Shown: piece after piece, positions 1,583-25,000 of the stretch
Layout: each line of letters starts with the position of its first letter
Position numbering within the stretch: the stretch's first letter is position 1
Origin: a virus
Strand: one strand, 5' to 3'
DNA: 25,000 nt
Virus record (IMG/VR): IMGVR_UViG_3300023215_001264
Location: 1 to 25,000 of that record
Notes under the pieces: model-generated
Told to the model about the DNA's origin: nothing
Database searches by the model: none
What the model saw: only the letters and a program-made list of their open reading frames with translations
Translations under genes and position numbers: made by a program

Positions 1583-1891
1583 ATGGCACATATAGAAAAT
1601 AATAGTCCTAGTTATTCTCGTTATAGTTATGGATATATAAATTTAAAACACAAGGGGGTGATCACTACCACTTCTGTCGGTTCCGAGTATGATGATTTCT
1701 TATTAAGTATGAATTTAATTACTGGTCAGCCAGGAGTGGTGCCCCCGTTCTGTAGTAATCGCCCAGATCTAATTGCTGATATTTTTTATGATAGTCCTGG
1801 ATATTGGTGGTATCTTATGCAGTATAATAATATAACAGACCCCTTTGAATCTCTTAATAGAGGCGATGATATTTTTATCCCCCCACTTTAA
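1583..1891 (+). CDS. Baseplate wedge protein, gp53-like with LysM-like C-terminus
   Basis: This small 102-aa protein has a C-terminal half that follows the gp53/LysM pattern of myovirus baseplates: 'RPDLIADIFYDSPGYWWYLM', then 'YNNITDPFESLNRGD' and a final 'IFIPPL' (about residues 60-102). In that family the paired tryptophans, the N-x-I-x-D-P-F turn and the G-D-x-I-x-I-P ending are typical. In T4, gp53 joins neighbouring wedges around the hub. The N-terminal 50 residues are tyrosine- and serine-rich and beta-like. The gene ends in TAA directly abutting the next ATG, so the two are probably translationally coupled. The call is fairly sure at the level of fold and role, less so for a one-to-one match with T4 gp53. 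Confidence 0.72.
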   Translation: MAHIENNSPSYSRYSYGYINLKHKGVITTTSVGSEYDDFLLSMNLITGQPGVVPPFCSNRPDLIADIFYDSPGYWWYLMQYNNITDPFESLNRGDDIFIPPL

Positions 1892-9094: not shown

Positions 9095-9558
9095 GCATCG
9101 AGTCCACCACAGTTTATGGAGTCCTTCCAGCTAGTACGACTAAATTAGACATTACTAGTGAAAGTAGTATATCACCCATTATAGGTGTTAGGTTTCCTCT
9201 TTCGGAGAAAGGGGATAGACTGCCTAATATTTTCTTAAAAGCTCAAGGAATGGGGTTGGTTAAAAGCATGGTCCGTCAGTTTATAAAAACAGAGCGTGGA
9301 GAGCGCGTAATGCTCCCTAACTTTGGACTATCTTTGAAGAGATTCCTTTTCGAGCCTATAACTCCTGACCTTATCTTAAATATAGAAAATGAAATTTATA
9401 CAGGGTTTGGGCAGTATCTTCCTAATATTCGTATTTTAAACTTACAGATCTTGAGTGGTGATAACATTCAAGGATTTGGCCTTCCAGGGATAAAGATAAC
9501 GATGGTTATTTCTCCTATAAATTCTAATGAGCAAGCTCAAATTTCAGTAAACCTATGA
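9091..9558 (+). CDS. Baseplate wedge protein, gp25-like (GPW/gp25 family)
   Basis: This 155-aa protein has the hallmark of the gp25 family: 'ERGERVMLPNFGLSLKRFLF' followed by E-P (about residues 68-89), preceded by 'MVRQFIKT' and followed by the helix 'LILNIENEIYTGFGQYLP' and a closing beta hairpin. gp25 is a small conserved core protein of every contractile tail wedge and helps nucleate sheath attachment. An N-terminal extension of about 50 residues before the domain is longer than in T4 gp25 (about 132 aa in total). The start overlaps the previous stop in an ATGA, as does the end with the next gene. No SD is visible, so translation is probably coupled. The assignment is firm. Confidence 0.9.
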   Translation: MSIESTTVYGVLPASTTKLDITSESSISPIIGVRFPLSEKGDRLPNIFLKAQGMGLVKSMVRQFIKTERGERVMLPNFGLSLKRFLFEPITPDLILNIENEIYTGFGQYLPNIRILNLQILSGDNIQGFGLPGIKITMVISPINSNEQAQISVNL

Positions 9559-11189
9559 CAACACAAGATTATAACTTACCTAAGGACATTCCGTTTATTT
9601 CTGCGAAATCGGATTTTCAGAAACTTTTGCCCTCTACTCTTAGCGATACACAGAAAAAAGCCTTAATTAATTATGCGTCTACCGACTTCGGTAGCTTGCG
9701 TGAGTCTTTGATCGCTTATATTAGAGCGGCGTACACGGATGATTATCAAAACATTGCTGAGTCTGATTTTGGGATGATGTTCACTGAGCTAGTAGCTTAT
9801 ATGGGATCGGTGCTTTCTTTTAAAGCCGATGCGTTAGCTAATGAAAACTTTTTACCTACTGCAAGAACGAGGAGGAATGTTAAAAAGTTATTAGAGCTTA
9901 TTGGTATTAGGATGAAGGGTCCTACTTCTGCGGGGGCAACTGCTCAACTCACTTTAACTATTCCTATAGTCCCGGAAGGAGATCCAGACGATGGCCCTTC
10001 GGAGATTGTTATCCCCGCACAGCAAAGAAGCTATGTAGTTACCTCTCCTTTAGATGGAGGAGCATTGACCTATACTCTGTACAAAGTACGGAGTGGTAAG
10101 ATAACCTCTCTTAATACAAATTCCACCGACATAGAGTTACTCCCTAGTGAAGTTTCTAATGATGCCAGTACTGTGTGGACTAACCTAGCCTTGTTAGAAG
10201 GTTCGTTAGTAGAGGAGAGTGGTACGTTTGATGATACGGAGATATTTAAAACAATTAACTTAACTCAAGGACCAGTCATTGAGAATAGCGTACAGGTTTT
10301 TGTTAACTCTATTGAGCCTTTATCAGGAACGTATTACCAAGTAGACAATATTTTTTCTGCTTCAGGGGCTAGTGATCAAATTTTTGAGGCCATATATGAT
10401 AATTCTTATAATGCTTTCCTAAGATTTGGAGATGGAAAAGTGGGAGCTTCCCCTCCTAACTCTTCAAGTTATAGAGTCCTATATCGTGTAGGTGGGGGAA
10501 GTAGAGGAAATTTATTAAGTACTACTATTACTTCTCCTATTGAAACGGTCTGGAGTCCCGGCGTTGTTCAAAGTACTAGTGTTGCTACTGGAGGGGTTGA
10601 TGCTGAAACTGTAGACCAAGCAAAGCTTTCGGGGCCATTAGTCTTTAAGCAACAAGATAGACTAGTCACGTTAGGAGATTATACATCATTCGTTGCTCGT
10701 TTTAGAAGCCCTACTGGCGGGAGTGCTATTGGAACAGCGTCTACGAGAAAAGCATTTTCTTCGGCAAATATAATTGATGTGTTTGTTCTTCAGAAAGCGA
10801 CCAATCTTCAATTACAAAAAGCTACTTTAGATTATAAGGCTCATCTATTGGAAGCTATGGAACAAAAGAAAATGCTTACGGATGAACTTGTTATAGTAGA
10901 TGGTCTTGTTAGAACTCTCGATATTTTAGTTACTGTGTATGTAGATCTTTCTTTAATTGATTACGAGGAAACTATTAAGGCCGAAGCCACACAAACTATT
11001 CAAGGATTTTTTGCTTATGATCGTTTAGGTTTTGGTAACTCTTTTATTCCTGAAGAGTTAAATAGAAATCTCTTTAATATTAATAAAGTACGTTACTCTA
11101 CTATTGATAATGTGAAAGACACTATCACCCCAGAATTCAATGAAGTAATTCAGTTAAATAACCTAACAATTAATGTAGCTTATATTTAA
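9555..11189 (+). CDS. Baseplate wedge protein, J/gp6-like
   Basis: This 544-aa protein follows gp25, as in P2, Mu, T4-like phages and contractile injection systems. The N-terminal region has the typical helical signature 'ESDFGMMFTELVAYMGSVLS' then 'NENFLPTARTRRNVKKLLEL' (about 68-114). The middle is a beta domain (about 125-330) containing 'FLRFGDGKVGASPP' and 'YRVGGGSRGN', the most conserved J-protein motif. The C-terminal part has 'VTLGDYTSFVARF' and later 'IDVFVLQ', with a final helix-strand region (about 370-544) like the gp6 dimerisation end. Baseplate J/gp6 subunits form the iris ring that triggers sheath contraction. The length fits between P2 gpJ (about 300 aa) and T4 gp6 (660 aa). 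The start overlaps the previous stop (ATGA) and there is no SD. Confidence 0.88.
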   Translation: MTTQDYNLPKDIPFISAKSDFQKLLPSTLSDTQKKALINYASTDFGSLRESLIAYIRAAYTDDYQNIAESDFGMMFTELVAYMGSVLSFKADALANENFLPTARTRRNVKKLLELIGIRMKGPTSAGATAQLTLTIPIVPEGDPDDGPSEIVIPAQQRSYVVTSPLDGGALTYTLYKVRSGKITSLNTNSTDIELLPSEVSNDASTVWTNLALLEGSLVEESGTFDDTEIFKTINLTQGPVIENSVQVFVNSIEPLSGTYYQVDNIFSASGASDQIFEAIYDNSYNAFLRFGDGKVGASPPNSSSYRVLYRVGGGSRGNLLSTTITSPIETVWSPGVVQSTSVATGGVDAETVDQAKLSGPLVFKQQDRLVTLGDYTSFVARFRSPTGGSAIGTASTRKAFSSANIIDVFVLQKATNLQLQKATLDYKAHLLEAMEQKKMLTDELVIVDGLVRTLDILVTVYVDLSLIDYEETIKAEATQTIQGFFAYDRLGFGNSFIPEELNRNLFNINKVRYSTIDNVKDTITPEFNEVIQLNNLTINVAYI

Positions 11190-14100
11190 ATGGCAAGAAA
11201 GTATTCAAAATCTAATTTCGTTGATGCAGTAAAGATTATTACTCCAGACATTTATCTTGAGGAAGATTTAGCAGTTGGTGGTCAGAAAATTAAATATACT
11301 GATCAAGTCATCAACAGCCATTTGGTGGGTATTAACTCCATTTCAACAGCAAATGATTCTCCCATTGGGGGACAGTCTCCCTTTTTGCATTTAAGTTCTA
11401 TCCCTAATAATGTATCTTATAGTTCTATTGATACTCCTGAAGGCTTTTCTAGATATTTTATCAAACAAAATAATTTAACTAATCTTAGCCCTCAGGATTT
11501 TGATAAAAGAATTTTAACGAAGTTAAATACTGCTCTTAAAAATTATGATTCGTCTAGTGATTTTGCAGCCTACGTAAGCTCTACTCTTTTACCTAAGTTT
11601 ACTTTAAACTCTTCTTCTTTATTGGCCGATAATTCAGGAGTATACGGAAGCACTCTTTCGGGAATTCATGATTATTTCATCACCAATTTAGGGTGGCTAT
11701 ATTTCTTAAATACTAGTGGCCCAATCTTTGACCCCTCTTCTTTAGTTTTAGACACATTGGTAAACACTATTTATGGAGGAACCAGTTATAGACTAAATGA
11801 TGCTATAAAAGATTATCAGACCTACGTATGGAAAAACTACTACGATTATACAGCTTCTGATCCTGCTTACCCAGATGATATAACCTATAACACAACTGCA
11901 GGATTCAATACCTTAAATGCTGGGCTTATTCCTGCTCCTTTTGCTTCTTCTACAGGAACTTTTACTAGTGGCACCCAAAATTTAGAAAAACTAAATACCT
12001 TTATTGATATTGTTTATTCTCCTCTTTATATTGATCGGGAAGATAACATCGTACAAAGAGCTATTGAGGAGTTTTTATCTGCTAATTCAAAGCTCTCTTC
12101 TATGGAATCGGCAGGACCTTTCTCTCGTTACCTTCAAGCAGTTTCTTATCTCCTTCGTGATCTGGATAACGAAGTAGAGTCCCTGGAAACTCTTTTATCT
12201 ATTCAAGATTGTCCTGTAGATTTTCTGCCGTACTTAGCAAGTCTTATCGGGTGGAATTTATATGGAGTAAATGAGGTTTCATGGAGAAATCAGTTATCTA
12301 ATGCGGTAAGGCTCTATAAAAAGAGAGGAACTAAAGCGGGGTTAGAAGAAGCTTTAGATACTATCATTGTTCAGAATCCACTTAATACTAGTGGTAGTAT
12401 AATTACTGAATTATATGAGTCTTATATTCCGAACCTCCTTTATTACCTTCTTTTAACAGATTCTCCATTATTTAACTTTGAATATTATACTCCTGAAGTA
12501 GCTCAAGCCTTAGGTGTAGACTCTTATGATTCTGCTAATATGGATGTTAATATTAGAGCAGCGGTAGATTCTATTATAAAAAGTGCTATAGAAGAATTTC
12601 CACACCTCTTTATTAATCGTAATGAGCCATTTAGAATAAACTTACTTGCAAATGGTCGGGGGTGGTTTGGGGATATTCTGAAGGATCCTCGCTTCGAAGA
12701 TCAATATATGAATCCCGAAGGGATTCCTGTTGCTATAAAAGCTGATCCTAATTTTGTATTTAATTATCGAACCCCCAACCATGTAACTCAAGTCCCCCCT
12801 TGGGAGGAAGAGAAGTTTTATAAAAATTGTGGAGTCACCTCTGATCTCCTTAACTTTTACGCTAATCGCTTAGGAGCTTTCTGTGTTAGTCTAAAATATA
12901 GGAACTCTTTTGTAGATTATGTAACAGAGTTTGTTTTGGATATTACCGATACCGACCTTTATCTTGGGAACTCTTATGTCTTTTTTACGTCCGCTCAAGA
13001 ATACTCCCCCAATCATGATCATATTCTTACTACTTACCAGACATCTTCCTATGATGCTTTAAGTTTGTGGAATGGAAAGTCCTCTACTTTTGACCTAACT
13101 ATTGGAGCAGGTTCTTTTTCTAGTACCTTTTTCCAAAATGTATCAGGGCAGTATACAGTCCAACAAATTGTTGACACCTTACGGATTGTAGATGATTTTA
13201 GTCCTGCTAAAGCCATCCCAAGAACACGCCTATACCTAACTCAAGAAGAGCATTTAAGTGGTATTGATTTTATGTGTCCTAGCATTCGTTGGGGAATAGC
13301 AGATGTCCCTCCTGTCTCAGGTCCTTGGTCGAATACCGAAATATCGGGGGTAAATGATAGGGGTACGGGATTCGCTTTAGGATATGATATACATCCAGGT
13401 TATGATGATAGTCGGAGTACCGTATCTCATGAATTTGCTCCCTGTTTTCATCGGAAGGGATCTGAATACTCTAATAATATTGTAAGATCTGTAGTAAATA
13501 CTTCATCAATTGTTCCCGAAAGTATTAGTAGGAATACAGTGCGGAGAAGAGATTTCTATAACACTTTAAATAAAAAAAGTTGGTATGATAGGACTGGTTG
13601 GAACATGCCTAGTTTCTACAATGCTGCAAGCTCTATTGTAGATTACTATCCTTTGGGTTTTATTCCATCGTCCTTTAGTTTTGCTGATGGAAGTCCCCAT
13701 AATTTATCGGGCGTTTATTCCAAGGACTGTAATACCAGTGGTTCAAACCGAACATATTTTGGGGTTCCTGTTAGCTCGGCTTTCTTAGTTAGAGGGAATA
13801 CTGGAATTACCTTCTCTTCTTGTGATTCTTATGTAAGAAGAAATATAACCCCTCCTGAGATTATACTATTTTTTAATTTAGAAGAGAAGAAGAAGAAGGC
13901 GTTAGCTAATGCTACTTATAAGTATAATGAATCCTTATTAACTACTTCGGCTGCATGGCTTAATTTTACTGATTCTTTAGCCAATCGAATGGACGATTTG
14001 AGTGAGAACAAATATCAAGGTCCTATTCTAGACAGGAGAAGAGCAAGTGTAGATTCGTCGGGAGGAGTGCAGTCCGTCTATAACGATTATAATAAGTTCT

Positions 14101-14891
14101 TTGGAACTTCTGTTTCCTTTAGCTCTCTCCCTGAGAATTTAGTACAAAAACATAAACATGGAGGTGCTAATATATTGTCTCATGTTTACGGGCCTATTTA
14201 TAGAAATGCTGATTTTTACTATGATGGAAGTGCGGTTTTAAATACAAGTTCCAATCTTGTTAATAGAACTTTCGCGGACCCCTTTGCATTAAATCTCGCT
14301 TTGAGTGGAGCTAATTACACCAGTATTGGTGTAGCCCCCTACTTTGCTTCCGCCATTCACAGCGAATCTCCTTATTTTGGATTTCCTGAGTATAGAACTC
14401 AGTTTGTTTTAAGTGGTGTAAACTTTATTGATAGTTCCTCTCTCTACGGCACTCCTGCTAATGAATTTTTAGTTTATAAGTTAGGAGATTTGGTTAAATC
14501 CACCGTGCCTAGCGATGATAATTATCTTATTAATAATAAGTGTTTGATGCTGAAGAAAAAATCTCATGGACTGCCTAGATTTTCTATTGATTTACGTGGA
14601 AGTGAGGATCTGAAGAATATTTTAATTCCTGAACATGATTTTGAGCTTTCAGTAGATTATCTTATAGGGAATCAAGAAGAGAGATCTTTTGGGGGTGGGG
14701 GGATTGGAGTTATTCTCCGAACAAAAGTAGAGCCCGTTAGAGGGGGAGGTTACGTGTTCTTTGTATGGACTCCACAACAAGAGTGGAAAATGGTTAATGT
14801 TAATGATGTAACTAACGGTTACACCAGTATTGATACTCTTATCAATAACTACACACATATATTTTCTGGGGGGGGATACTTCTACTGTTAG
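11190..14891 (+). CDS. Giant tail/baseplate protein with P2 gpI-like segment; N-terminal part of a frameshifted gene
   Basis: This 1233-aa reading frame starts directly after the gp6-like gene (TAA then ATG). Residues about 328-395 read like phage tail protein I of P2-type tails: 'CPVDFLPYLASLIGWNLYG', then 'WRNQLSNAVRLYKKRGTKAG' and 'LEEALDTI'. The protein following J in such phages links wedge to fibres, so this position fits. The rest is mostly unknown. It is aromatic- and asparagine-rich, with a lysine-rich helix (EEKKKKALANATYKYN, about 897-912). The last 90 residues look like the first half of a glycan-binding jelly roll (FELSVDYL, then GGGGIGVILRT, then YVFFVWTPQQEWKMV). That domain is cut short: after a run of eight G at 14868-14875 the frame adds only GYFYC and stops. 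The continuation is in the next frame over. The gpI call is moderately sure; the truncation is seen directly. Confidence 0.7.
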   Translation: MARKYSKSNFVDAVKIITPDIYLEEDLAVGGQKIKYTDQVINSHLVGINSISTANDSPIGGQSPFLHLSSIPNNVSYSSIDTPEGFSRYFIKQNNLTNLSPQDFDKRILTKLNTALKNYDSSSDFAAYVSSTLLPKFTLNSSSLLADNSGVYGSTLSGIHDYFITNLGWLYFLNTSGPIFDPSSLVLDTLVNTIYGGTSYRLNDAIKDYQTYVWKNYYDYTASDPAYPDDITYNTTAGFNTLNAGLIPAPFASSTGTFTSGTQNLEKLNTFIDIVYSPLYIDREDNIVQRAIEEFLSANSKLSSMESAGPFSRYLQAVSYLLRDLDNEVESLETLLSIQDCPVDFLPYLASLIGWNLYGVNEVSWRNQLSNAVRLYKKRGTKAGLEEALDTIIVQNPLNTSGSIITELYESYIPNLLYYLLLTDSPLFNFEYYTPEVAQALGVDSYDSANMDVNIRAAVDSIIKSAIEEFPHLFINRNEPFRINLLANGRGWFGDILKDPRFEDQYMNPEGIPVAIKADPNFVFNYRTPNHVTQVPPWEEEKFYKNCGVTSDLLNFYANRLGAFCVSLKYRNSFVDYVTEFVLDITDTDLYLGNSYVFFTSAQEYSPNHDHILTTYQTSSYDALSLWNGKSSTFDLTIGAGSFSSTFFQNVSGQYTVQQIVDTLRIVDDFSPAKAIPRTRLYLTQEEHLSGIDFMCPSIRWGIADVPPVSGPWSNTEISGVNDRGTGFALGYDIHPGYDDSRSTVSHEFAPCFHRKGSEYSNNIVRSVVNTSSIVPESISRNTVRRRDFYNTLNKKSWYDRTGWNMPSFYNAASSIVDYYPLGFIPSSFSFADGSPHNLSGVYSKDCNTSGSNRTYFGVPVSSAFLVRGNTGITFSSCDSYVRRNITPPEIILFFNLEEKKKKALANATYKYNESLLTTSAAWLNFTDSLANRMDDLSENKYQGPILDRRRASVDSSGGVQSVYNDYNKFFGTSVSFSSLPENLVQKHKHGGANILSHVYGPIYRNADFYYDGSAVLNTSSNLVNRTFADPFALNLALSGANYTSIGVAPYFASAIHSESPYFGFPEYRTQFVLSGVNFIDSSSLYGTPANEFLVYKLGDLVKSTVPSDDNYLINNKCLMLKKKSHGLPRFSIDLRGSEDLKNILIPEHDFELSVDYLIGNQEERSFGGGGIGVILRTKVEPVRGGGYVFFVWTPQQEWKMVNVNDVTNGYTSIDTLINNYTHIFSGGGYFYC

Positions 14892-17490
14892 TATTCCTAA
14901 TGATTGCCCCCAACTGTCCGTGGGTAACTTATTATCACGGGTAAATAAAAATACTTTCAAGCAAGGGAAATTTAGGTTCCATACGAGAAACATGATAACT
15001 AAACTTCCTATTGAATATGCTACTTATCGTCAAACAGGAGCCGCCGCAGAAGTTTATAATGGGCGGTCTGTTCAATTACATAGAGCATTCATTAGTCAGA
15101 GTGCGAAGACACAAAATTATTTTATAGAGGTTTTCCCTCTTCCTACTAACTCTGATAAACAGTTTGCATTATTCGATAAAATTAATGTAGTTGATACTAC
15201 TCTTAATGAGGCAGCGTGTATTCCTTATAGCGGAAATATAGTAAATCTTAATCGTAAATTAGATACGGTAGATAGGACCACTTTCTATACCTCTAAAGGA
15301 GATACATTAGATTTCCAACCTGTTATTGTTGGTTCGTGGAATGATGAGGCTACTGCGGATATATTTACCATTAATCCTCGCCTATGGCAAACAGGAAACA
15401 CTTCTGTATGGAATGACCTTCCTCAAGACGCTACGCTATTCCAACCCTGGGCAATTGCTAATTCTTCACAGCTTCTTAAAAAACAGTTTTTGCTTAATTA
15501 CCCTTTGGCTGGATCAACTAAGTCTTTATGGGGGACAGATGATGCTCCTTGGGGAAGAATACCTTTTACAGGATTAGTAAATGTTACATGGACAACTACT
15601 CCTACAGGATTTACTAATTCGGAGACTACCGCCGCCGTTGTTGGCGAGGATAATCTTACTTTTGCCGCTAAGACTGAAATACTTAAACGGTATTGGGATG
15701 ATCGAAAAGGGTTTTTGGCTGTTAATGATTGGAGCGAATATATTACTGTAGGGGAGAGGGTTATTGGCTTTGCTCCTAATGAGCTTGGGCCAGGAGTATA
15801 TGGTAGTGATGGGGGAGTTAGTTGGTGGCATCTTGGTGGCCCAATCGGTTCTACAATAGTCCCTATAAGACCTTTGTTGGGTGTAGCACGATCTGGTCAT
15901 TCTTATAGCGAACAAAATAAGGGAACTAAAGCTGTTGCTAACCCCTTTGGAAGAATTCCTAGTGAAGAATTTATTCCTAGTGAAATCTTGAACGGGGTTC
16001 CTGGGGTAGTTTCGGTAGGTGCGACTCAAGAAGTAGACTTTACTTCTAGACGGAGGGGGGATAGTGGTGTTTGGAGTGCGGTGGATCCTCTTCTTCCCAC
16101 AATCATAGACCCTTTAGGATATGTAACTTCATCTACAGCGTTTAAAAATTTAATTAATATTCCCTTGGATAAGGATCCAACGAGCGACCCCTTCGTTTGG
16201 GAAACGTCTAGTATTTGGGTTGATGAGGGTCATGCTATTACGTTCCCACCACTATCGGTTTATAGAGATATCAAAAGGGATAGATTAATTCATGGTAAAG
16301 AATATACCTTCGCTATGCATGTGGCTTCTCCTGGATCATATATCTCTAATTACGCAGATAGAATTGGATTCGCTACTTCTGCTATTTTGACAATTGCCCC
16401 TATAGGATCTGCTGAAAGTTATACTAGGCTTACCTTACGCCTTCCTAGAGATGGGACTACTACTGACCCCTTTGTGGCTAGTTCTATTCAAACTAACGGG
16501 CACACTTTAACAGGGGGCGCTGCTGCTCGTATAACGGTTAGTGCAGTTAATCCTTTAGGAGGATACCCTACTACTGGAGGTGATAATTTAATGTGGTATA
16601 GAATGGAAGTTACTATTCCTTATGACAGCCAGGAGTTAGATTCTACTGATAAAACTAATTTAGGGTTGCGATGTTCTCTACAGGCATATAATGATTATTG
16701 GGATGAGGCGTTTTCAACTGGACACCCGCCTGCCAACTTAAGCTATGAATACTACCCTTGTAGGCTATGGACTTGGGGGCCATCTTTTCATGCTGAAGCT
16801 AGTGGATTAAGTTTTACTCGATATCCTCAAGTGGTTTATGCCATTTCTAGAGTTAATGGGGGCCATTGGGGAGCGTGGCAAGATACGTATGCAACGGCTA
16901 ATACTATGGTTTATAATAGTATTAATAATATTTTGGAGGAGGAAACGTTATTTCCTAAAGAAGTATACAACAAAGATGATGAGCTTTATATGTATAACAA
17001 AGAAGCCTCAGGACTTTCAAAGTTAACTGTAGCCCAAGACGTTGCAAATAATACTCTTTTTGCATCTAAGCTTTTTAGTAAAGTTCAATTGTTTGATAGT
17101 AGCGGGAATTTATATAATGGGGATATTACTCTTAGCCCTGACCAGTATTTGATTAGGGAAAAATATGGAGATGAAGAATCTAGTGAGTTTGGTCGGAGGC
17201 TTACCGTGTCGGGAACACAAGAGGGTACGAATATTTTAAAATCAGTGGTGGGGAAGATTTTATTAGAACCTAGAGAACTTATACATCTTTTCCAGTACTT
17301 TAATAAGTTAGGAAAGCAGTGTGCTGGTCCTGCTCTAAACACTAGAGTTGGCAGTGATGCGGCTGCTATTCATGACTTGAGTGGAGGGAGCAGATTAACA
17401 TATAGAATTAATCCCGATAATCATTTAGTATCCTTGGACGGGACAAACGAAGACTTTGGAAATTATACAATACTGGATGTAAATAATTAA
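14830..17490 (+). CDS. C-terminal part of the giant tail protein, in shifted frame (glycan-binding-type tail protein)
   Basis: The frame is open from TTG at 14830, but its first residues are the shifted reading of the upstream gene and are probably not made. Sensible sequence begins after the G8 run, at 14875 (DTSTVSIPND). The first in-frame ATG is at 14992, without an SD. About 870 residues follow with no recognised enzyme motif. They are beta-rich, with many Gly, Thr, Ser and Trp. A jelly-roll-like module is likely around residues 470-670 ('GKEYTFAMHVASPGSYIS', 'YTRLTLRLPRDGTT', 'MWYRMEVTIPYDSQ', 'CRLWTWGPSFHAEASG'). This resembles the 'YTFSVYAK ... W-x-R ... WGxQ' carbohydrate-binding modules of phage tail proteins. 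The ending (SRLTYRINPDNHLVSLDG) is polar. It abuts the next gene (TAA then ATG). Together with the preceding frame it most likely encodes one fibre or baseplate-linked protein. Confidence 0.7.
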   Translation: MILLSITTHIYFLGGDTSTVSIPNDCPQLSVGNLLSRVNKNTFKQGKFRFHTRNMITKLPIEYATYRQTGAAAEVYNGRSVQLHRAFISQSAKTQNYFIEVFPLPTNSDKQFALFDKINVVDTTLNEAACIPYSGNIVNLNRKLDTVDRTTFYTSKGDTLDFQPVIVGSWNDEATADIFTINPRLWQTGNTSVWNDLPQDATLFQPWAIANSSQLLKKQFLLNYPLAGSTKSLWGTDDAPWGRIPFTGLVNVTWTTTPTGFTNSETTAAVVGEDNLTFAAKTEILKRYWDDRKGFLAVNDWSEYITVGERVIGFAPNELGPGVYGSDGGVSWWHLGGPIGSTIVPIRPLLGVARSGHSYSEQNKGTKAVANPFGRIPSEEFIPSEILNGVPGVVSVGATQEVDFTSRRRGDSGVWSAVDPLLPTIIDPLGYVTSSTAFKNLINIPLDKDPTSDPFVWETSSIWVDEGHAITFPPLSVYRDIKRDRLIHGKEYTFAMHVASPGSYISNYADRIGFATSAILTIAPIGSAESYTRLTLRLPRDGTTTDPFVASSIQTNGHTLTGGAAARITVSAVNPLGGYPTTGGDNLMWYRMEVTIPYDSQELDSTDKTNLGLRCSLQAYNDYWDEAFSTGHPPANLSYEYYPCRLWTWGPSFHAEASGLSFTRYPQVVYAISRVNGGHWGAWQDTYATANTMVYNSINNILEEETLFPKEVYNKDDELYMYNKEASGLSKLTVAQDVANNTLFASKLFSKVQLFDSSGNLYNGDITLSPDQYLIREKYGDEESSEFGRRLTVSGTQEGTNILKSVVGKILLEPRELIHLFQYFNKLGKQCAGPALNTRVGSDAAAIHDLSGGSRLTYRINPDNHLVSLDGTNEDFGNYTILDVNN
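14868..14875 (+). repeat. G8 homopolymer at a frame junction
   Basis: Eight G in a row, the longest such run I noticed here, lie exactly where the upstream frame loses its domain. Upstream codons read TCT GGG GGG GGA and reach a stop at 14889. The downstream gene needs GGG GGG GAT. Removing one G joins the two frames into an uninterrupted 2099-aa protein. The tract could be an assembly or sequencing error, a true indel, a phase-variable switch, or a site of transcriptional slippage or ribosomal +1 frameshifting. Confidence 0.85.
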
Positions 17491-19341
17491 ATGATTGGAA
17501 CAGTAGAAATTTATAGAGCTTTTGGTACTCCTCGACAAGAATTATTGTACGAGGAGAATAACCTTATTGTTAATGGAGGAGGCCAAGCTATATGCGATAT
17601 TTTAACTACTCCTTCAGGAGTCGCTTCAGCCCTCCCCTTCCAAGGATCTTCTCTCACTGATTCTTCAAACTTTACTGTTCAAGCTATTTCTTTTGGGAAA
17701 TCTTCAGAGGCGTATAGAAATAATACTCACTTCTATCCTTTTGATCTTTCCTCTTATGTTGGGGTGGGGGAGTACGAATCTTATATTAATCTTGTAAAAG
17801 CGGATAAAGTAATTAGAGCCGTATCTCTTATTGATGAAAACATAGATTCTACTCTACATTCTTATGATCCTAAGCGAGATCCTGGGGCCACTCCTAATGT
17901 TAACGACACTCAATTAGAACCTAACACTCGTTGCGGTATTGATTTGGTATCAGGACAGTACCATTCAATGGGGGATAAGTTAATGCAGGGACGGTCTCAT
18001 TCTGTCGGGCACAATTTGAATAGGGTTCAAAGTAATACTAATCCCAACTTATTATCTTACACAGAGAACCCCAACAGCGATCCCAACGCTGGTTCTGGGC
18101 CTGACATGGCGAACCAAACGGTGTGGACCTCTAGCACAGGGGTTGCAAAAATCACCCTTTTGGATGAAACTACAGGCCCCTTTTCAAATACCTCTGCGAT
18201 TTTGGTTAGTGGGACGGGAGTTGGGGTTGCTGTCCTTAGGCAAGAGAATCCCCTGCAAAAAACCTATTTTCATCCTAATCTAGATCATACTTTCAGTCTT
18301 TACGCTAAACTTCCTGATGTAAATCCTGCATCAAGTTTAACTCTTAATATTAGCGACAGAACAGCAAACACAGTAAGTCATTCAGTAACATATTCTTTTT
18401 CAGGAGTAGATACTAGCACTATATCAGACCCTGTGATAGTAAATACTCTCAACGGAGCCACAGGACATATCACCCCTAGCGCAGGTGTGGATGGTTCAGG
18501 AGGTTGGTATAGATTAGAGTGTCGCTTAGAAAATTTAGGCACGGTAAGCGTTAGTACTGTATTGGTAGATGATTTAAATGTGCGAGCTACGCTTGGGACT
18601 CATAAGTTGCTATCGGACGATCCAGCCGCTATTTATTTCTATGGGTGGCAGTTAGAGGAGAGTGCGGTTGCTACTGAATTTAATAAAGTTGAAGGGTTAA
18701 ATCCTACAGACGCAGAAGGGGGTTTAGGAGGAGACTTATTTTTGGGGTGTTGGCCTCCTACCAAACAAGCGGACTTTGCTATAGTTTCTAGTATTTCTAA
18801 CCTATTAACTCCACAAGATAATATCTATGTAAGTGGTAGTTACCCCACCAGCACTACAGGTCATTATTTTAACTCCTCTGGAATTAGATCTATGGATAGA
18901 AATGGATATGTAAAAGCATTATATGGATTACATGGAGATGCGTATACTAAAAATGATCCTGTCTCTGGTTTAGTGGTATCAGCATCCCATCTAGGAGACT
19001 TCTCTTCTACAGGAGAGGTTATGTACGTATGTACAATTTCATCAGGAGATTTAGGGTATGCTAATATGTACGGGGGACTATTTAAAGTGGGGCTATGGAC
19101 TATTGATTTAGCTGAAACTCTAAAAAGCGTAGACCCTGAGGGTAATCCCAAAGGGGTTCCTGGGTTCCCGTTAAGATTTACTGCAGGCTATAATAAATTA
19201 GTATATAAGTTATTCGCGGAGAAGAGCTTTACTAAAAATATAGCAGCCATTAAAGATGATGGGGCTAAGGATGGATGCACAGCGTATGACGATCTTACGC
19301 TTATCTGGAAAATAAAATTTACGGGGGGAGATTTACCATGA
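17491..19341 (+). CDS. Tail fibre/adhesin protein: anchor domain interrupted by a carbohydrate-binding-type module
   Basis: This is the first of three adjacent proteins with a common anchor-like domain (616 aa). The N-terminus (GTVEIYRAF, then 'EENNLIVNGGGQAI', about 3-34) matches the starts of the next two proteins. The C-terminus ('YGGLFKVGLW' and closing 'LTLIWKIKF', to about residue 610) corresponds to their anchor endings. Between these lies a module at about 185-400: 'NLLSYTEN', 'HTFSLYAKLPDV', 'GGWYRLECRLENL', 'IYFYGWQLEESAVATEF'. This is the familiar phage tail carbohydrate-binding pattern (N-L-L start, Y-x-x-S-x-Y-x-K core, final 'YGxQLExxxxATxF'). The protein therefore probably attaches to the baseplate and binds a surface glycan. 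No hydrolase motif is visible. It starts right at the previous TAA without an SD and ends in ATGA with the sulfatase gene. Confidence 0.65.
   Translation: MIGTVEIYRAFGTPRQELLYEENNLIVNGGGQAICDILTTPSGVASALPFQGSSLTDSSNFTVQAISFGKSSEAYRNNTHFYPFDLSSYVGVGEYESYINLVKADKVIRAVSLIDENIDSTLHSYDPKRDPGATPNVNDTQLEPNTRCGIDLVSGQYHSMGDKLMQGRSHSVGHNLNRVQSNTNPNLLSYTENPNSDPNAGSGPDMANQTVWTSSTGVAKITLLDETTGPFSNTSAILVSGTGVGVAVLRQENPLQKTYFHPNLDHTFSLYAKLPDVNPASSLTLNISDRTANTVSHSVTYSFSGVDTSTISDPVIVNTLNGATGHITPSAGVDGSGGWYRLECRLENLGTVSVSTVLVDDLNVRATLGTHKLLSDDPAAIYFYGWQLEESAVATEFNKVEGLNPTDAEGGLGGDLFLGCWPPTKQADFAIVSSISNLLTPQDNIYVSGSYPTSTTGHYFNSSGIRSMDRNGYVKALYGLHGDAYTKNDPVSGLVVSASHLGDFSSTGEVMYVCTISSGDLGYANMYGGLFKVGLWTIDLAETLKSVDPEGNPKGVPGFPLRFTAGYNKLVYKLFAEKSFTKNIAAIKDDGAKDGCTAYDDLTLIWKIKFTGGDLP
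19323..19330 (+). promoter_or_regulatory. Shine-Dalgarno site for the sulfatase tail gene
   Basis: GGGGGGAG lies 7 bases before ATG 19338, while most neighbouring genes lack an SD. It supports the chosen start and suggests independent, perhaps stronger, initiation for the sulfatase gene in addition to the ATGA coupling. Confidence 0.6.
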
Positions 19342-22300
19342 AGGGAAGTGTAACAGTTAATAAAGTTTTTTCTGATGGAACCAAAGAATTGGTTTGTCAT
19401 GACGATAATGTTTTAACTGATGGTATGGGGTATGGAATTATTAATATTTTTACCGACACTGGATCTAAAAACATTGCAGACCATTTGGTAGGATATTTTC
19501 AAGTGGGGATTGGTAGATTAAATCCTGATCTCCAGCCAGCAGATAAGAGAAAATATATAAGTACCTTAAAAACACCTCTGACAGAGGGAAGCTATGGTAA
19601 GAATCCTGAGGTTGAAATAAATTATCACCCTCTTAAAAAACTTCATAAAACAAACTTTAGTCCTTCTATTCATGAGGAAGTCGAGAACTCTAACTTTGTC
19701 ATTTTACCTGATGCGTATAGTACTCAGCTTATAGAGGGGGTAGTTCATTATCGACTTCATATTGGAGAAGAAATAGCTAATGGTTTAAATATTTCTGAGT
19801 TTGGGTTATTTCTTAGAAATCCCGATGGGGCTATTAATACAGAGAATTCTATATTAGTAGCTTATAAGAATTTTCCTGTTGACGAAACCATTACTAAAAA
19901 TAAGAATTTTTCTCTGGAAATTGATTGGCAAGTTAAGTTTATAGACGAAGTTAATACTGAGATTGAGCCTTTAAGCTCTACCGCTTTAAATGTAGTATTT
20001 ATCATGATTGATGACGTGGGGTTTGATTACCTAGGCCTGTATGATGATGTAAATCCTTATGATTTATCTTGTACAGGAGAGTTTACAGCCGATGGTCTCG
20101 TTAATCCAGATTGCAATCCTTATAGCCAGATAGATGACCCTGTAAATGGGAGTGGAATATACCCACATACCCCCTGTTTGAGTGCTTTAGCGGCTGCTGG
20201 AATCTTGTTTAAAAATGTAAGGGCTATGCCTACTTGTAGTCCAACTAGGTCTTCAGTTATTACAGGAAAGTATAACTTTAGTTGTAAAAACAGTAACCAA
20301 GGAGGTCCCCCTGGTCCCGCTATTTGGGGTCCTGGAATAGGATCCGTCCCTAGTCCTGTAGGTAGACGGGCGCGGGGTGGTCTAAAAGGATTAAACAGAT
20401 CTTATACTCTTTTACCTGCCTTTAATGCTACAGATCAAACACCTAGACCTTTTGAATATTTAGTTAGAGGAGGACAAGGAGAAGAAAGCGGGATCGCTAA
20501 CCAGAAAGTTTTTGCAGAGTATATGCGAGACAGAGGGTATAGCTCCTCCTTCTTTGGGAAATGGCATTTAGCTCATTGGGAAGAGAAGTTAGTTTATTGT
20601 GAGGATGGATCGGATCAAGTTTATGGAGAGGGCTGGAATAACATTGGAGAAGTAGGTAAGTGGGATCACTACGTTGCCACTTGGGCTAACTTAAGAAATG
20701 ACACCCCGATACCTGGAAAAGCATTTGATAGTGGCTGGGTTGCTTGGCAGGGCTCCCATCCCGACGATCCTCAAGAAGGGTGGCCTAATTTTGGAAACGT
20801 TCCAGCCGATCCGTTCTATTTGAAGGGGGATGAGATGGGGTATGTTAATTTCTTTGATGTTTCAGGAAATAATGATCCTGCTAATATTGATAGTTACATA
20901 GTAGAAACTGTTTCAGATACGGGGTATGTTCCTCCTATGTTGTCGGCTTCAGCGTCCCCAGTATCTTATGCTCAAGGATCTCCCACTAACTTTGCTACTA
21001 CGCATATTTTTGAAAAGGCTACACAACATTTTGGTTCTTCAGCTATAAACCCAGAGCCCTTCTTTCAGTATATCACTCCCAACCTACCACATGATCCTTG
21101 GACTTTCCCACCCGAAAAAGGGGTTTATAATCCCTACTATAAAGCTAATCATATTCAGATACTCCTGCAGGATGGTAATCCTATATTGTTTGGTGGCACG
21201 GAAGGGGCTACATCGGCTAGTTGGATGACAGTAAATTCTCAGCTTGAACACTTTGATTATACTTTAAGTGCGTTCATGGACTCTATAGATCAAGAGGTAA
21301 AAAAGAGAACCCTTTTTATTATTACTTCGGATAATGGTTCTGTACCTACTGATCTGAATAAACGAGCAAACTTTTGTGTTTCTACGGTAGGCTCGAATTA
21401 CTTAGGGACTACCTTTAGTAGCATGTTGAATTTAGAAGACCATTGTGCTGCACAGTTTGCTGCGGATCTAGTTGGATCTGAAGAGCCTGTTCGTAGAGGA
21501 GGGCAGAATAATTCTGCAAACCAGTTTAAAGGCTCTTTATATGAAACGGGAGTGAAGGTTCCAATGATTGCTTATGGACCCAAAGTAGGAGTTTTATCTG
21601 GCGTAACATCAAATGCGTTTATTGATCTTGTTGATATATTAGCAACTGTGGTAGATGGGGCTAGTACCCAGAAGTTACGAGGTCATGATATTCCTAGCGA
21701 CTCCATATCCTTTTTAGATATTCTTACTGGAGCTACTGATGCGTCAAGCCATCCCCGACAATTCTCTTATTCTGAAGACTTTTTTCCTATAGGATCTAGT
21801 TTTGGAAATCCAGAAGGAGCGGGGTCTAATACAAGTAAGGCCCTTCAATGTCTAGGGGGGAATAACATTGATATTGGGTTTGGAGATCCTGTTGTTCCCT
21901 CAAAACGTAGAAGTTGTATGTTGGTAAGACATGCTGCGTCAGAATATGCTGTACGACCCGCGCCCTTAATTGCTCAATTAGTATTTAATGAAATAGGTTT
22001 CACTGGATCCTATGCCGGGGACGGAAATAGTGATCCTGAGGGTATTCCTGATGCTAGTGGAGGAACATGGAAAATAATAAGGCCAGCAGGGGATACGGTT
22101 GATGAAGGTACAGATGATGAGAGATACCTAAAAGGATCTCTTTATGATGAGCTATATCAGATTCAAAAAGATGATTTTAGTAATGTGGATACTTTTGAAT
22201 TATATGATTATATTCCTGAGGAGTGGAAGGGGGAGCTTCCTGCAGGGCAGCCAGGAGAAGTTGGACCCTTTATTTTAAGTGGGCTCATAGCATCTGCAGT

Positions 22301-22478
22301 AAATGTCGTTGGCAGCACAGGGCACCTAGATAATACAGTACATTATTGGAACTTAGCTAGAATCTATGAAGTGCTTCGAACTGAGTTATCATATTTCTTA
22401 CAATACCGACGAGATCCCTCAACAAGTGTTTTAGGTATAGAAAATTCTACAGTTGATATAGAGTTAGATGGAACGTAA
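19338..22478 (+). CDS. Tail adhesin with N-terminal anchor domain and complete type I (formylglycine) sulfatase domain
   Basis: Residues 1-201 are the shared anchor domain, ending in WQVKF. A linker of about 15 residues leads into a full sulfatase of the alkaline phosphatase superfamily, from about residue 217 to near the end. Seen in order: metal-binding D225-D226 (VVFIMIDDVGF); the formylglycine motif C300-S-P-T-R304 (CSPTRSSVITGKY), cysteine-type; K408 and H410 (FGKWHL); H585 (LPHDPW); D665-N666 (ITSDNGS); K731 (FKGSLYETGVKVPM). A C-terminal subdomain includes 'TFELYDYIPEEW', like the usual 'ELYDL' ending. These match the residues of classic arylsulfatases. The reaction would be hydrolysis of sulfate esters, with a sulfated glycan as the likely target. 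There is no signal peptide, so it is probably carried on the virion. Cys300 must be oxidised to formylglycine by a host enzyme. At about 800 aa the sulfatase part is longer than usual, with a large insertion between H410 and H585. Related phosphonate or phosphodiester hydrolases share this fold, so the substrate is inferred. Confidence 0.88.
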   Translation: MKGSVTVNKVFSDGTKELVCHDDNVLTDGMGYGIINIFTDTGSKNIADHLVGYFQVGIGRLNPDLQPADKRKYISTLKTPLTEGSYGKNPEVEINYHPLKKLHKTNFSPSIHEEVENSNFVILPDAYSTQLIEGVVHYRLHIGEEIANGLNISEFGLFLRNPDGAINTENSILVAYKNFPVDETITKNKNFSLEIDWQVKFIDEVNTEIEPLSSTALNVVFIMIDDVGFDYLGLYDDVNPYDLSCTGEFTADGLVNPDCNPYSQIDDPVNGSGIYPHTPCLSALAAAGILFKNVRAMPTCSPTRSSVITGKYNFSCKNSNQGGPPGPAIWGPGIGSVPSPVGRRARGGLKGLNRSYTLLPAFNATDQTPRPFEYLVRGGQGEESGIANQKVFAEYMRDRGYSSSFFGKWHLAHWEEKLVYCEDGSDQVYGEGWNNIGEVGKWDHYVATWANLRNDTPIPGKAFDSGWVAWQGSHPDDPQEGWPNFGNVPADPFYLKGDEMGYVNFFDVSGNNDPANIDSYIVETVSDTGYVPPMLSASASPVSYAQGSPTNFATTHIFEKATQHFGSSAINPEPFFQYITPNLPHDPWTFPPEKGVYNPYYKANHIQILLQDGNPILFGGTEGATSASWMTVNSQLEHFDYTLSAFMDSIDQEVKKRTLFIITSDNGSVPTDLNKRANFCVSTVGSNYLGTTFSSMLNLEDHCAAQFAADLVGSEEPVRRGGQNNSANQFKGSLYETGVKVPMIAYGPKVGVLSGVTSNAFIDLVDILATVVDGASTQKLRGHDIPSDSISFLDILTGATDASSHPRQFSYSEDFFPIGSSFGNPEGAGSNTSKALQCLGGNNIDIGFGDPVVPSKRRSCMLVRHAASEYAVRPAPLIAQLVFNEIGFTGSYAGDGNSDPEGIPDASGGTWKIIRPAGDTVDEGTDDERYLKGSLYDELYQIQKDDFSNVDTFELYDYIPEEWKGELPAGQPGEVGPFILSGLIASAVNVVGSTGHLDNTVHYWNLARIYEVLRTELSYFLQYRRDPSTSVLGIENSTVDIELDGT

Positions 22479-22480
22479 TT

Positions 22481-23062
22481 ATGGAAAAATTTAAGCCCAC
22501 AGGACATTTACAAATAATAAAAATTTATGAGGATGGAGCCGAAGAGGTCCATTTTGATGAAAATAATATGATTGTATCGGGATTGGGGGTAGGTTTAGCA
22601 CATTTATATGCCGGGTCGGGAGCTTCTCAAATATCTGACTATCAAGTAATTAATTTTCAAGTAGGGGTAAGTGGCGATGAATTAGACTATGGAACCTCTA
22701 CGTTTAAGTTAGTATCTCCATGCACCGCTTCTCAGTATTTGTCTACTGGAAGTGAGAATTTTGTTGAAAACTTAAAACCCATTCAAAATGGGGTAGTAGT
22801 AACCGATACACAAACCTTTATTCGCTTTCCGTTTAATAACATTCAAAAAGTAGATAAAAATACAGTTCGCTTTAATTTATTCTTAGATAAATATACCCTA
22901 AACGGGTTAGGGAACCCCTTAGACGAGGTAGGGTTGTTTATGAGAAATCCTAGAGGAGTTATTCCACTCCCCAACCCTATTTTAATAGCGTACAGACCTT
23001 TTACTAGTTTAATAAAAACTAGCACTTTCTCCCTTTTATTCAGGTGGACACTTAATTTCTAA
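22481..23062 (+). CDS. Stand-alone anchor-domain tail protein (paralogue of the two upstream adhesins)
   Basis: This 193-aa protein consists only of the domain that opens the sulfatase protein. Shared landmarks, in order: 'GHLQIIKIYEDGAEEV', 'DENNMIVSGLGVGL', 'YQVINFQVGVSG', then 'DEVGLFMRNPRGVI', 'NPILIAYRPF' and closing 'FSLLFRWTLNF'. The sulfatase protein has 'SVTVNKVFSDGTKEL', 'DDNVLTDGMGYGI', 'VGYFQVGIG', 'SEFGLFLRNPDGAI', 'SILVAYKNF' and 'FSLEIDWQVKF' at matching places. The lengths agree closely (193 against 201), so the domain boundary is clear. Possible roles are a short fibre, a cap, or an adaptor competing for the same baseplate site; this is inference. The gene starts 2 bases after the upstream stop, without a strong SD. 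Confidence 0.68.
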   Translation: MEKFKPTGHLQIIKIYEDGAEEVHFDENNMIVSGLGVGLAHLYAGSGASQISDYQVINFQVGVSGDELDYGTSTFKLVSPCTASQYLSTGSENFVENLKPIQNGVVVTDTQTFIRFPFNNIQKVDKNTVRFNLFLDKYTLNGLGNPLDEVGLFMRNPRGVIPLPNPILIAYRPFTSLIKTSTFSLLFRWTLNF

Positions 23063-23064
23063 TT

Positions 23065-25000
23065 ATGGCATTTATTTCTAACGACCTTTATTCTTCCAGC
23101 GCAGGAACCGAGCTTTTTAATTATTGGAATCCTTTCGTTACCAAATTTGACAGCCAATCTTTTTATAATTTTGAGCAAGATAATCAACCTCTTTATGATT
23201 TAGAAGAGAGGACAATGCAACTTTGGGAAAAGTCTACAGGCTATGCTCCCTCCTCTTTAAATGGAATGCCTTTAGTTGTGTCAGGGGTATTAGATTCCGA
23301 TAATAGAAATGTTTTTCTTAATCTTCAAGAAGCTTTAGATGCTCTTCCTAATGTTATTAGGACTCCTACCCTTATTGAGGTGGCTCGATCAGGGTATTTG
23401 GGGGGCTTACATTTAAATAATATTAAGATAATTGAGGATGGAGTTTTGGAAATTGTTAACCGAGGTTTTGCTAAAGTTTATAGTGGAGCAGGAAACCCTG
23501 ATGCAATCATAGCAGGTGCTTGTAGTTCCATAGGAAAACAAACACTTAATAGCAATTTTAAAAACTCAGGATTAATTAATACCCTTTCTTCACTAGATTT
23601 GAGTTCTACTATTCATAATACTTCTGCTCTTTCTGTAAGATGTAATGTTTCTTCGTTGTTCTACCAGCCATTTAACAGAACCTTTGTACAAGTAATTAAC
23701 TTTGCTTCAAATAAGGAAAGAAATGGTAAGATTTCTGCTGGGTATATTGATGATCACTCAGGCAGAGCTATTGCTACTAACTTTCCGCAAGGAGGGACAA
23801 CAGAAGGGGCGGACACAGACACATTCTTATTACCTGTGTGGGAAGCTTCTGCCTACAATAGTACAACTTATAATATTGTGGACTTTACTTGTTCTACTAC
23901 TGATGTTTCAGCAGTTAGGGGAGACTGGAGACCCTTTGGGGGAAATTATGATAAAACAGCACAATATTTATGGAGGAACGGAACATTCGGATCAAAATAT
24001 TATAACAATAGTCCAAACCCCGATGGTGCAAGACAGCTTACAGGTATGTCTTATGCGAACTCGTTGTCCGCAATTGAAATTCAAAACTGTACAGGACCGC
24101 TTTACATTCGAGGGTTCTGTGTAGAAAGTGTAAGTGGTGCTGATTTACAAGCCCTAGCTTCTCCAGCTTATAAAGGAGATGTAGGGATTAAAGTTGTTAA
24201 TTCTAATGCAGTTATTGAGAACTGTACAGTTATAAGAGCCACTACTACAGGAGCCAAGTTTGTTAATTCAGATGTTGAACTTAAGCGAGGCTTCTTCGCG
24301 TACCGAAATTATGAACTTATTGCTCCTGGGTTTAGTAGAGGGCCAAACAAAACTGCTGGAATTCATGCTATAAACAGCACCGTTAATTTGGCAATTGATC
24401 CCGTGTACGCCTCTGGAGCCGACTACGCTTTTAATACTCAACATCATGATTACGGTATAATTTTAGAAAACAGCGTTCTTATTGGAGGACAAAGCCGACC
24501 CCTAACCTCTTTACAGGATACAGCATTAGCTTTCTCTTATAATGATGTTGGTATTAAGGCTGTCAATTCTACCATTGATGTTAGCGGCAATCTAGATGTG
24601 TACAATAATAATACGGGAATGCAGTTAATAAACTCGTATGTTTCTACAGACAGGCTCACGGTAGAAAATCATACCTTTGCTGGTATAGAGGCTGAAAACT
24701 CAGTGATTAAATATAATAACAGCCAAGTGAGGAGAATTTATGATAATGATGTTAGTGGTTATAGAATGACCCAAAGCCTTTTCCATAGAAATGGAACGCA
24801 TCTAAACCTAAAAAATAATAGTATCTTTACTTACTATATTGAGCCCTCTACAATCGACATCCCCCTTTACTATGGAGGACTACGCTTTTCAGACTCTCAT
24901 GGTACTGCAAACATTACGGCTGATATTACCGCTTCTGCTGCTCTTCCTGCTGTATTCTTAAACAATTCTCAAGCAGACTTATTACACTGTAGGCTTGTCT
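23065..25000 (+). CDS. Tail spike/fibre protein with right-handed beta-helix (3' end outside the window)
   Basis: Translating from ATG 23065, 2 bases after the previous stop, gives 645 codons with no stop to the right edge. The N-terminus contains 'FYNFEQDNQPLYDLEERTMQ' then LWEK (about 32-55). I associate this with virion attachment regions of tail proteins in large marine-type phages (memory-based, unverified). The middle (about 60-365) is beta-rich with aromatic and asparagine residues and two 'NCT'-type segments. From residue 374 a repeated heptapeptide G-[I/A/M]-x-x-x-N-S occurs at G374, G396, G432, G464, G496, G518 and G540. Spacings are 22, 36, 32, 32, 22 and 22 residues. That is the signature of a parallel beta-helix with an asparagine ladder, as in tailspike depolymerases and pectate-lyase-like adhesins. 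No catalytic residues can be assigned. The gene adjoins the anchor-domain family but does not share its N-terminus. Confidence 0.72.
   Translation, partial: MAFISNDLYSSSAGTELFNYWNPFVTKFDSQSFYNFEQDNQPLYDLEERTMQLWEKSTGYAPSSLNGMPLVVSGVLDSDNRNVFLNLQEALDALPNVIRTPTLIEVARSGYLGGLHLNNIKIIEDGVLEIVNRGFAKVYSGAGNPDAIIAGACSSIGKQTLNSNFKNSGLINTLSSLDLSSTIHNTSALSVRCNVSSLFYQPFNRTFVQVINFASNKERNGKISAGYIDDHSGRAIATNFPQGGTTEGADTDTFLLPVWEASAYNSTTYNIVDFTCSTTDVSAVRGDWRPFGGNYDKTAQYLWRNGTFGSKYYNNSPNPDGARQLTGMSYANSLSAIEIQNCTGPLYIRGFCVESVSGADLQALASPAYKGDVGIKVVNSNAVIENCTVIRATTTGAKFVNSDVELKRGFFAYRNYELIAPGFSRGPNKTAGIHAINSTVNLAIDPVYASGADYAFNTQHHDYGIILENSVLIGGQSRPLTSLQDTALAFSYNDVGIKAVNSTIDVSGNLDVYNNNTGMQLINSYVSTDRLTVENHTFAGIEAENSVIKYNNSQVRRIYDNDVSGYRMTQSLFHRNGTHLNLKNNSIFTYYIEPSTIDIPLYYGGLRFSDSHGTANITADITASAALPAVFLNNSQADLLHCRLV

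Follow-up and report, generated by a model that had tools for sequence, protein, structure and literature searches.

The glycan-active enzymes known from phage virions include tailspike lyases, glycosidases and deacetylases. The sea is rich in sulfated polysaccharides, whose sulfation is thought to protect them against degradation. Sulfatases of the S1 type require conversion of a cysteine or serine to formylglycine, which is carried out by FGE or anSME (PMC8484680; PMC6388578). Among tail proteins, gp105 of Listeria phage A511 forms the proximal tail fiber and attaches the receptor-binding proteins, and Gp119 of Bacillus phage Vp4 has the same fold as gp105 with carbohydrate-binding modules added (PMC11406892). 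Another virion protein, gp15 of Salmonella phage Arash, has been detected in purified virions by mass spectrometry with 76% coverage (PMC10585845). Formylglycine-generating enzymes in phages and prophages are mentioned in the literature; in the open-access literature that we searched, preprints excluded, we found no description of phage, viral or virion-borne sulfatases, and priority is uncertain. As far as that literature shows, the view taken in a preliminary description of the DNA studied here, that a sulfatase built into a tail protein is rare or undescribed, holds. In this study, we analyzed a 25,000-nucleotide stretch of a viral record (IMG/VR IMGVR_UViG_3300023215_001264), called the window below, that encodes a sulfatase domain fused to a putative tail anchor. 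We consider it probable, at roughly 0.7, that this protein is a desulfating enzyme attached to the baseplate or tail fibers and matured by the formylglycine machinery of the host; the host is unknown, and presence in the virion, maturation, activity, the glycan substrate and a role in entry or release are all inferred.

The fusion gene occupies 19338..22478 on the plus strand, where all features given here lie, and encodes 1046 amino acids from an ATG start. The reading frame is real, as the preliminary description had it, and so is the boundary that it placed near residue 201, since an HMM of the anchor covers residues 1-202 of the same protein in L170. The N-terminal tail-attachment (anchor) domain, which resembles phrog_5417, accordingly spans residues 1-202 (19338..19943). 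The formylglycine (S1-type) sulfatase domain takes up residues about 217-801 (19986..21740); its core, at about 217-800, is narrower than the residues 210-1046 for which the preliminary description had proposed a structure prediction. A C-terminal extension of unknown role (residues 802-1046; 21741..22475) is less conserved, with 28-39% identity to the orthologs, and its portion from about residue 830 to 1030 is found only in orthologs. An assembly chimera is very unlikely, because L003, a contig from another metagenome that is 99.97% identical to the window over 15.4 kb, carries the same fusion with a single residue changed, and because other relatives carry the fusion as well. A chance reading frame or a decaying gene is ruled out by the family score, the conserved active site and the purifying selection described below. 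An AlphaFold2 model of the full-length protein, built with a 12-sequence alignment, had a pLDDT of 36 and was unusable for judging the fold or the geometry of the active site.

The assignment of the enzyme domain rests on profile matches and on motifs. Sulfatase (PF00884) is the single Pfam family in the protein, matching in two stretches with an E value of 7.4e-24 and a score of 85 bits, the cut-off being 25. The matches listed in a phmmer search of the PDB were exclusively sulfatases, the best being the kappa-carrageenan S1_16 sulfatase 9fo1, which a profile of the fusion family matched at E 6.7e-23. In the profile alignment to 9fo1, ten catalytic residues fall on the motifs DD, C-x-P-x-R, GKWHL, (P/V)HTP, SDNG and K-x-x-L-Y. 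They are the metal ligands D225 and D226 (20010..20015); C300, the formylglycine precursor, and R304 in the maturation motif CSPTR (20235..20249); K408 and H410 in GKWHL (20559..20567); H585 in PHDP/PHTP (21090..21092); D665 and N666 in SDNG (21330..21335); and K731 (21528..21530). The preliminary description had named the same ten at the same positions, all of them correctly, and had allowed that their loss in close homologues would count against it. None has been lost: the ten residues and P302 are identical in 11 of 11 aligned copies that cover the domain. With 92 of 524 sulfatase columns invariant in that alignment, the chance that all 11 residues would be among them is about 3e-9 if invariant columns were randomly placed. 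We also found purifying selection on the sulfatase part in one pair of contigs, L065 and L066, whose dN/dS is 0.19 for the sulfatase, 0.10 for the anchor and 0.17 for the C terminus. This pair is the closest and the only measurable one, the next being saturated at synonymous sites in the anchor and the sulfatase. Collectively, profile and motif comparison confirm a predicted S1 (formylglycine) sulfatase with every catalytic residue needed for cutting sulfate off sugars, while enzyme activity itself is inferred.

Activity would further require maturation. We propose that C300 in CSPTR would be oxidized to formylglycine in the host cytoplasm by FGE or anSME while virions are being produced. No gene for FGE or anSME was found on the phage contigs searched, which are incomplete, and sulfatase activity would for that reason depend on the host; no gene tying the phage to a particular host was noticed. 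The same absence leaves room for a protein that is displayed on the virion and uses the sulfatase fold to hold a sulfated glycan with little or no turnover, because C300 stays unmatured or catalysis is too slow to be of consequence. Glycan binding is frequent among tail modules, and an unmatured cysteine is common where a suitable maturase is missing (PMC8484680). A pure binder, however, need not keep C-x-P-x-R, the metal ligands and the acid-base residues, all of which are invariant among copies down to 34-36% identity, and we regard this explanation as unlikely. It is also conceivable that the domain is a hydrolase of the alkaline phosphatase superfamily with another specificity, acting on phosphonate or phosphate monoesters such as phosphates of surface glycans. 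Members of that superfamily are promiscuous, and the known sulfatase that matches best is only distantly similar, so that the substrate cannot be read from the sequence. Against this stand the Pfam assignment, the PDB matches listed, all of which are sulfatases, and the presence of the GKWHL and SDNG motifs; we think such a specificity quite improbable.

The architecture is not confined to the window. The window's gp6 baseplate gene led to 31 related loci in IMG/VR, and 10 of 32 records, counting that of the window, have a sulfatase with a fused anchor; by their lengths, the other 22 contigs end before the site, so that every close-clade contig reaching it (10/10) has the fusion. A scan with the downstream paralog added the fusion of L213, and a profile scan added further contigs. 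In total, the combination of anchor and sulfatase, which the preliminary description had suggested looking for elsewhere, occurs in the same tail slot of 14 further viral contigs (15 counting the window), several of which end within the gene. Leaving aside the near-identical copy, orthologs share 34-52% identity with the window protein. From the IMG numbers of the contigs we presume that most derive from marine viral metagenomes and that the phage group is probably marine. Longer versions occur in L069 (5847-10373) and L213 (1414-5964), at 1509 and 1517 amino acids. In L069, about 480 extra residues lie between anchor and sulfatase and resemble, on visual inspection, an alpha/beta hydrolase (GNGFGS), for which we found no Pfam or PDB support. 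In L068 (7329-11393) and L070 (5754-9920), about 300 residues of unidentified nature are inserted downstream of the GKWHL motif.

Outside this group, relatives are distant. The whole fusion protein had no match at E 1e-3 by tblastn against 50,697 phage records, and the sulfatase part alone gave marginal matches only. A single-sequence search of bacterial genomes found no match; a profile search returned only distant sulfatases, many from Verrucomicrobia and Planctomycetes, whose identity was 22-33% in the longer alignments and reached 53% in short ones. Because these bacterial matches are only distant, neither the donor nor the substrate can be named. All anchored copies form one clade in the sulfatase tree, apart from the 44 bacterial sequences compared. 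Within that tree, the L067 copy, from a phage of the main clade, falls with those of a second phage lineage, which suggests that the sulfatase module may have been exchanged between lineages; the branches are long, and exchange is not proven. Standalone sulfatases are encoded on three unrelated, GC-rich (65-69%) viral contigs, L073 (7992-9635), L074 (7785-9152) and L075 (2424-3698). Of the relatives without an anchor, the L073 protein comes closest by HMM score, with 149.6 bits against at most 101 for bacterial sulfatases. All four of the phage sulfatases compared with PHROG families (those of the window and of L073, L074 and L075) match phrog_19870, which is labeled "unknown function" and, judged by these matches, is evidently a sulfatase family.

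For the N-terminal domain, several lines of comparison point to the tail. It matches phrog_5417, a family of unknown function, weakly (E 1e-3), and the downstream anchor-only paralog matches it better (E 3.5e-6). A model of the domain reached a pLDDT of 74 and a pTM of 0.75, and its top Foldseek matches in the PDB were A511 gp105 and the baseplate arm of phi812. These matches are modest (E 1.7e-3 to 9.5e-3, probability 0.72-0.97, TM about 0.3). Thirty BFVD models match the anchor at E <1e-3, including two annotated tail fibers and one baseplate protein. The anchor HMM also found Arash gp15 (E 1.2e-7), a remote homolog for which a single-sequence search gives only E 0.08, as well as hypothetical proteins of Vibrio phage GR11A (E 6e-7) and Pseudomonas phage Peetri (E 5e-3). 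Arash gp15 sits among structural genes, and the Peetri homolog lies between baseplate wedge and tail-fiber genes. The HMM comparison is moderate evidence that the anchor is remotely homologous to a proven virion protein, Arash gp15. Together, the modest fold match, the fold matches to viral tail fibers, the remote Arash homolog and the module-swapping slot described below support a role of the N-terminal domain in tail attachment.

The gene is also encoded among tail genes, in an order that is conserved, with gp25, gp6 and Tail_P2_I genes upstream of it in the window and in its relatives. A gp53-like baseplate wedge subunit (1583..1891; phrog_232, E 2e-6) is followed at a distance by the baseplate wedge protein gp25 (9091..9558; PF04965, E 4e-7; phrog_261), by a baseplate wedge protein of the T4 gp6/baseplate J type (9555..11189; phrog_219, E 4e-34, with phage matches), and by a giant tail protein with a Tail_P2_I domain (11190..17490; PF09684, E 8e-8). 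The giant gene is a single reading frame of 2099 amino acids in L003 and is split in the window into frames at 11190-14891 and 14830-17490 by one extra G, the window having eight at 14868-14875 where L003 has seven; the tract is either a sequencing slip or a variable homopolymer. A tail gene of 616 amino acids (17491..19341) directly precedes the fusion, and its counterpart does so in the contigs that reach it. In the relatives, this gene measures about 600-650 amino acids (392 in L069), and, wherever a contig shows both sides, it is followed by the fusion and then by an anchor-only paralog of about 190 amino acids; this comparison does not extend to the gene preceding the L213 fusion. Past the paralog, the window ends within a reading frame (23065..24999) whose product is complete in L003 at 1232 amino acids. 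This protein has no Pfam match and is probably a beta-helical tail protein, as inferred from its repeat pattern. A 75-kb relative, G010, carries a T4-type terminase, portal, major head protein and tail sheath. The preliminary description had placed the gene in an adhesin cluster, and the wedge and Tail_P2_I genes upstream bear out such a tail setting.

The anchor-only paralog (193 amino acids; 22481..23062) lies directly downstream of the fusion, is 29% identical to its anchor, and is the conserved partner of the slot. Relatives of the paralog adjoin the slot at 59 viral loci. Sorted by the gene that precedes the paralog, 10 of these have the sulfatase, 38 have a module from one of three unrelated families (3, 14 and 21 loci), 6 have only the anchor and 4 have no clear anchor; the remaining locus is cut. 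Module type follows lineage on the paralog tree, with 6 changes where the least possible is 5, and the sulfatase appears in two separate lineages. These distributions meet the expectation for a module-swapping slot, as for receptor or depolymerase genes. An enzyme slot is not proven, because the other modules have no recognizable enzyme family: their representatives had no Pfam or PHROG match beyond that of the anchor, and the three tested had no PDB match. The three unidentified families precede the paralog in L173-L205, L209 and L220-L223, measure roughly 350-1000 amino acids and share the same anchor. These modules are candidates for new receptor-binding or coat-active proteins, and about 40 neighbors with unidentified modules on one anchor form a ready set for finding coat-active proteins.

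The slot also bears on whether the sulfatase could be metabolic cargo, working within the infected cell or secreted from it to supply sulfur or carbon, with the tail-like fusion an accident. Standalone sulfatases do occur on the unrelated contigs L073-L075, and sulfatases are listed among viral auxiliary genes (PMC10029852). Cargo would not, however, be expected to have a tail anchor in every family copy and a fixed place in the tail module, nor to share that anchor with other modules in other phages of the group. Sulfated polymers are moreover extracellular, and a hydropathy scan found neither strong hydrophobicity nor a secretion-signal-like start at the N terminus of the fusion protein. The preliminary description had noted the missing signal peptide and argued against a metabolic gene acting in the cell, and both points are supported; we consider cargo very unlikely.

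Our results are most consistent with a model in which a T4-related phage with a contractile tail carries the fusion as a tail protein of its virion. Attachment to the baseplate arm or the proximal tail fiber would be the task of the ~200 N-terminal residues, and the ~830 C-terminal residues would display the S1-type sulfatase at the tail tip. Translated without a secretion-signal-like N terminus and matured by the producing host, the protein would be assembled into the tail through its anchor. The tail could then hydrolyze sulfate esters, either on the next host, whose capsule, exopolysaccharide or surface glycan would be sulfated, or on debris bearing such esters, and desulfation may expose or release a receptor-bearing surface. 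What the sequences demonstrate is the fusion, the conservation of its catalytic set, its place among tail genes and the modular slot; the anchor role is supported by fold or remote homology. That the enzyme serves release more than entry, desulfating decoy glycans on debris or vesicles like a receptor-destroying enzyme so that progeny are not trapped, fits all sequence data, and enzymes mounted on tails can act both early and late in the infection cycle, yet nothing in the data separates the two roles and we give this emphasis hardly any weight.

If the tail-mounted desulfating enzyme is real, it represents new chemistry for phages crossing host coats, suggests that sulfated cell coats are a barrier to phages and ties virion activity to the formylglycine-generating enzyme of the host. 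Our findings suggest that this phage group strips sulfate from the coat of its host, with activity and substrate inferred. We see the chances as evenly balanced that the fusions are the first described class of virion-borne sulfatases, active only if the producing cell made formylglycine, such that the previous host licenses the opening of the next host's sulfated coat. The family also offers sulfatases that would be mounted on a fixed scaffold and active extracellularly.

With its presence in the virion inferred, the fusion would be a virion-borne glycan-modifying enzyme whose chemistry we have not found described in that role. The nearest solved structures are the S1 sulfatases 9fo1 (kappa-carrageenan, S1_16) and 7an1 (an arylsulfatase). 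The phage protein shares with 9fo1 the C-x-P-x-R, DD, GKWHL, H, SDNG and K catalytic set in the same order; unlike both enzymes, it is fused to a tail domain, lacks a secretion-signal-like N terminus and has a long C-terminal extension. The sulfatase-type proteins of L073-L075 and phrog_19870 are likewise encoded on phage contigs, but they are standalone proteins without an anchor, belong to other phages (GC 65-69%) and in two cases have secretion-signal-like starts. On the anchor side, there is a modest likeness to the fold of A511 gp105 and the phi812 arm as detected by Foldseek, gp105 being a baseplate protein (baseplate wedge 3) that attaches receptor-binding proteins; we know of no enzyme domain in gp105. 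Arash gp15 and the hypothetical proteins of Peetri and GR11A consist of the anchor only, without the fused module of the window protein. For extra modules on the gp105 fold, the nearest precedent is Gp119 of Bacillus phage Vp4. Like the tailspike glycan enzymes, the fusion combines a conserved attachment domain with a swappable glycan-active module; in contrast to them, it would remove sulfate esters instead of cutting a backbone or removing acetyl groups, and it would need formylglycine maturation to do so.
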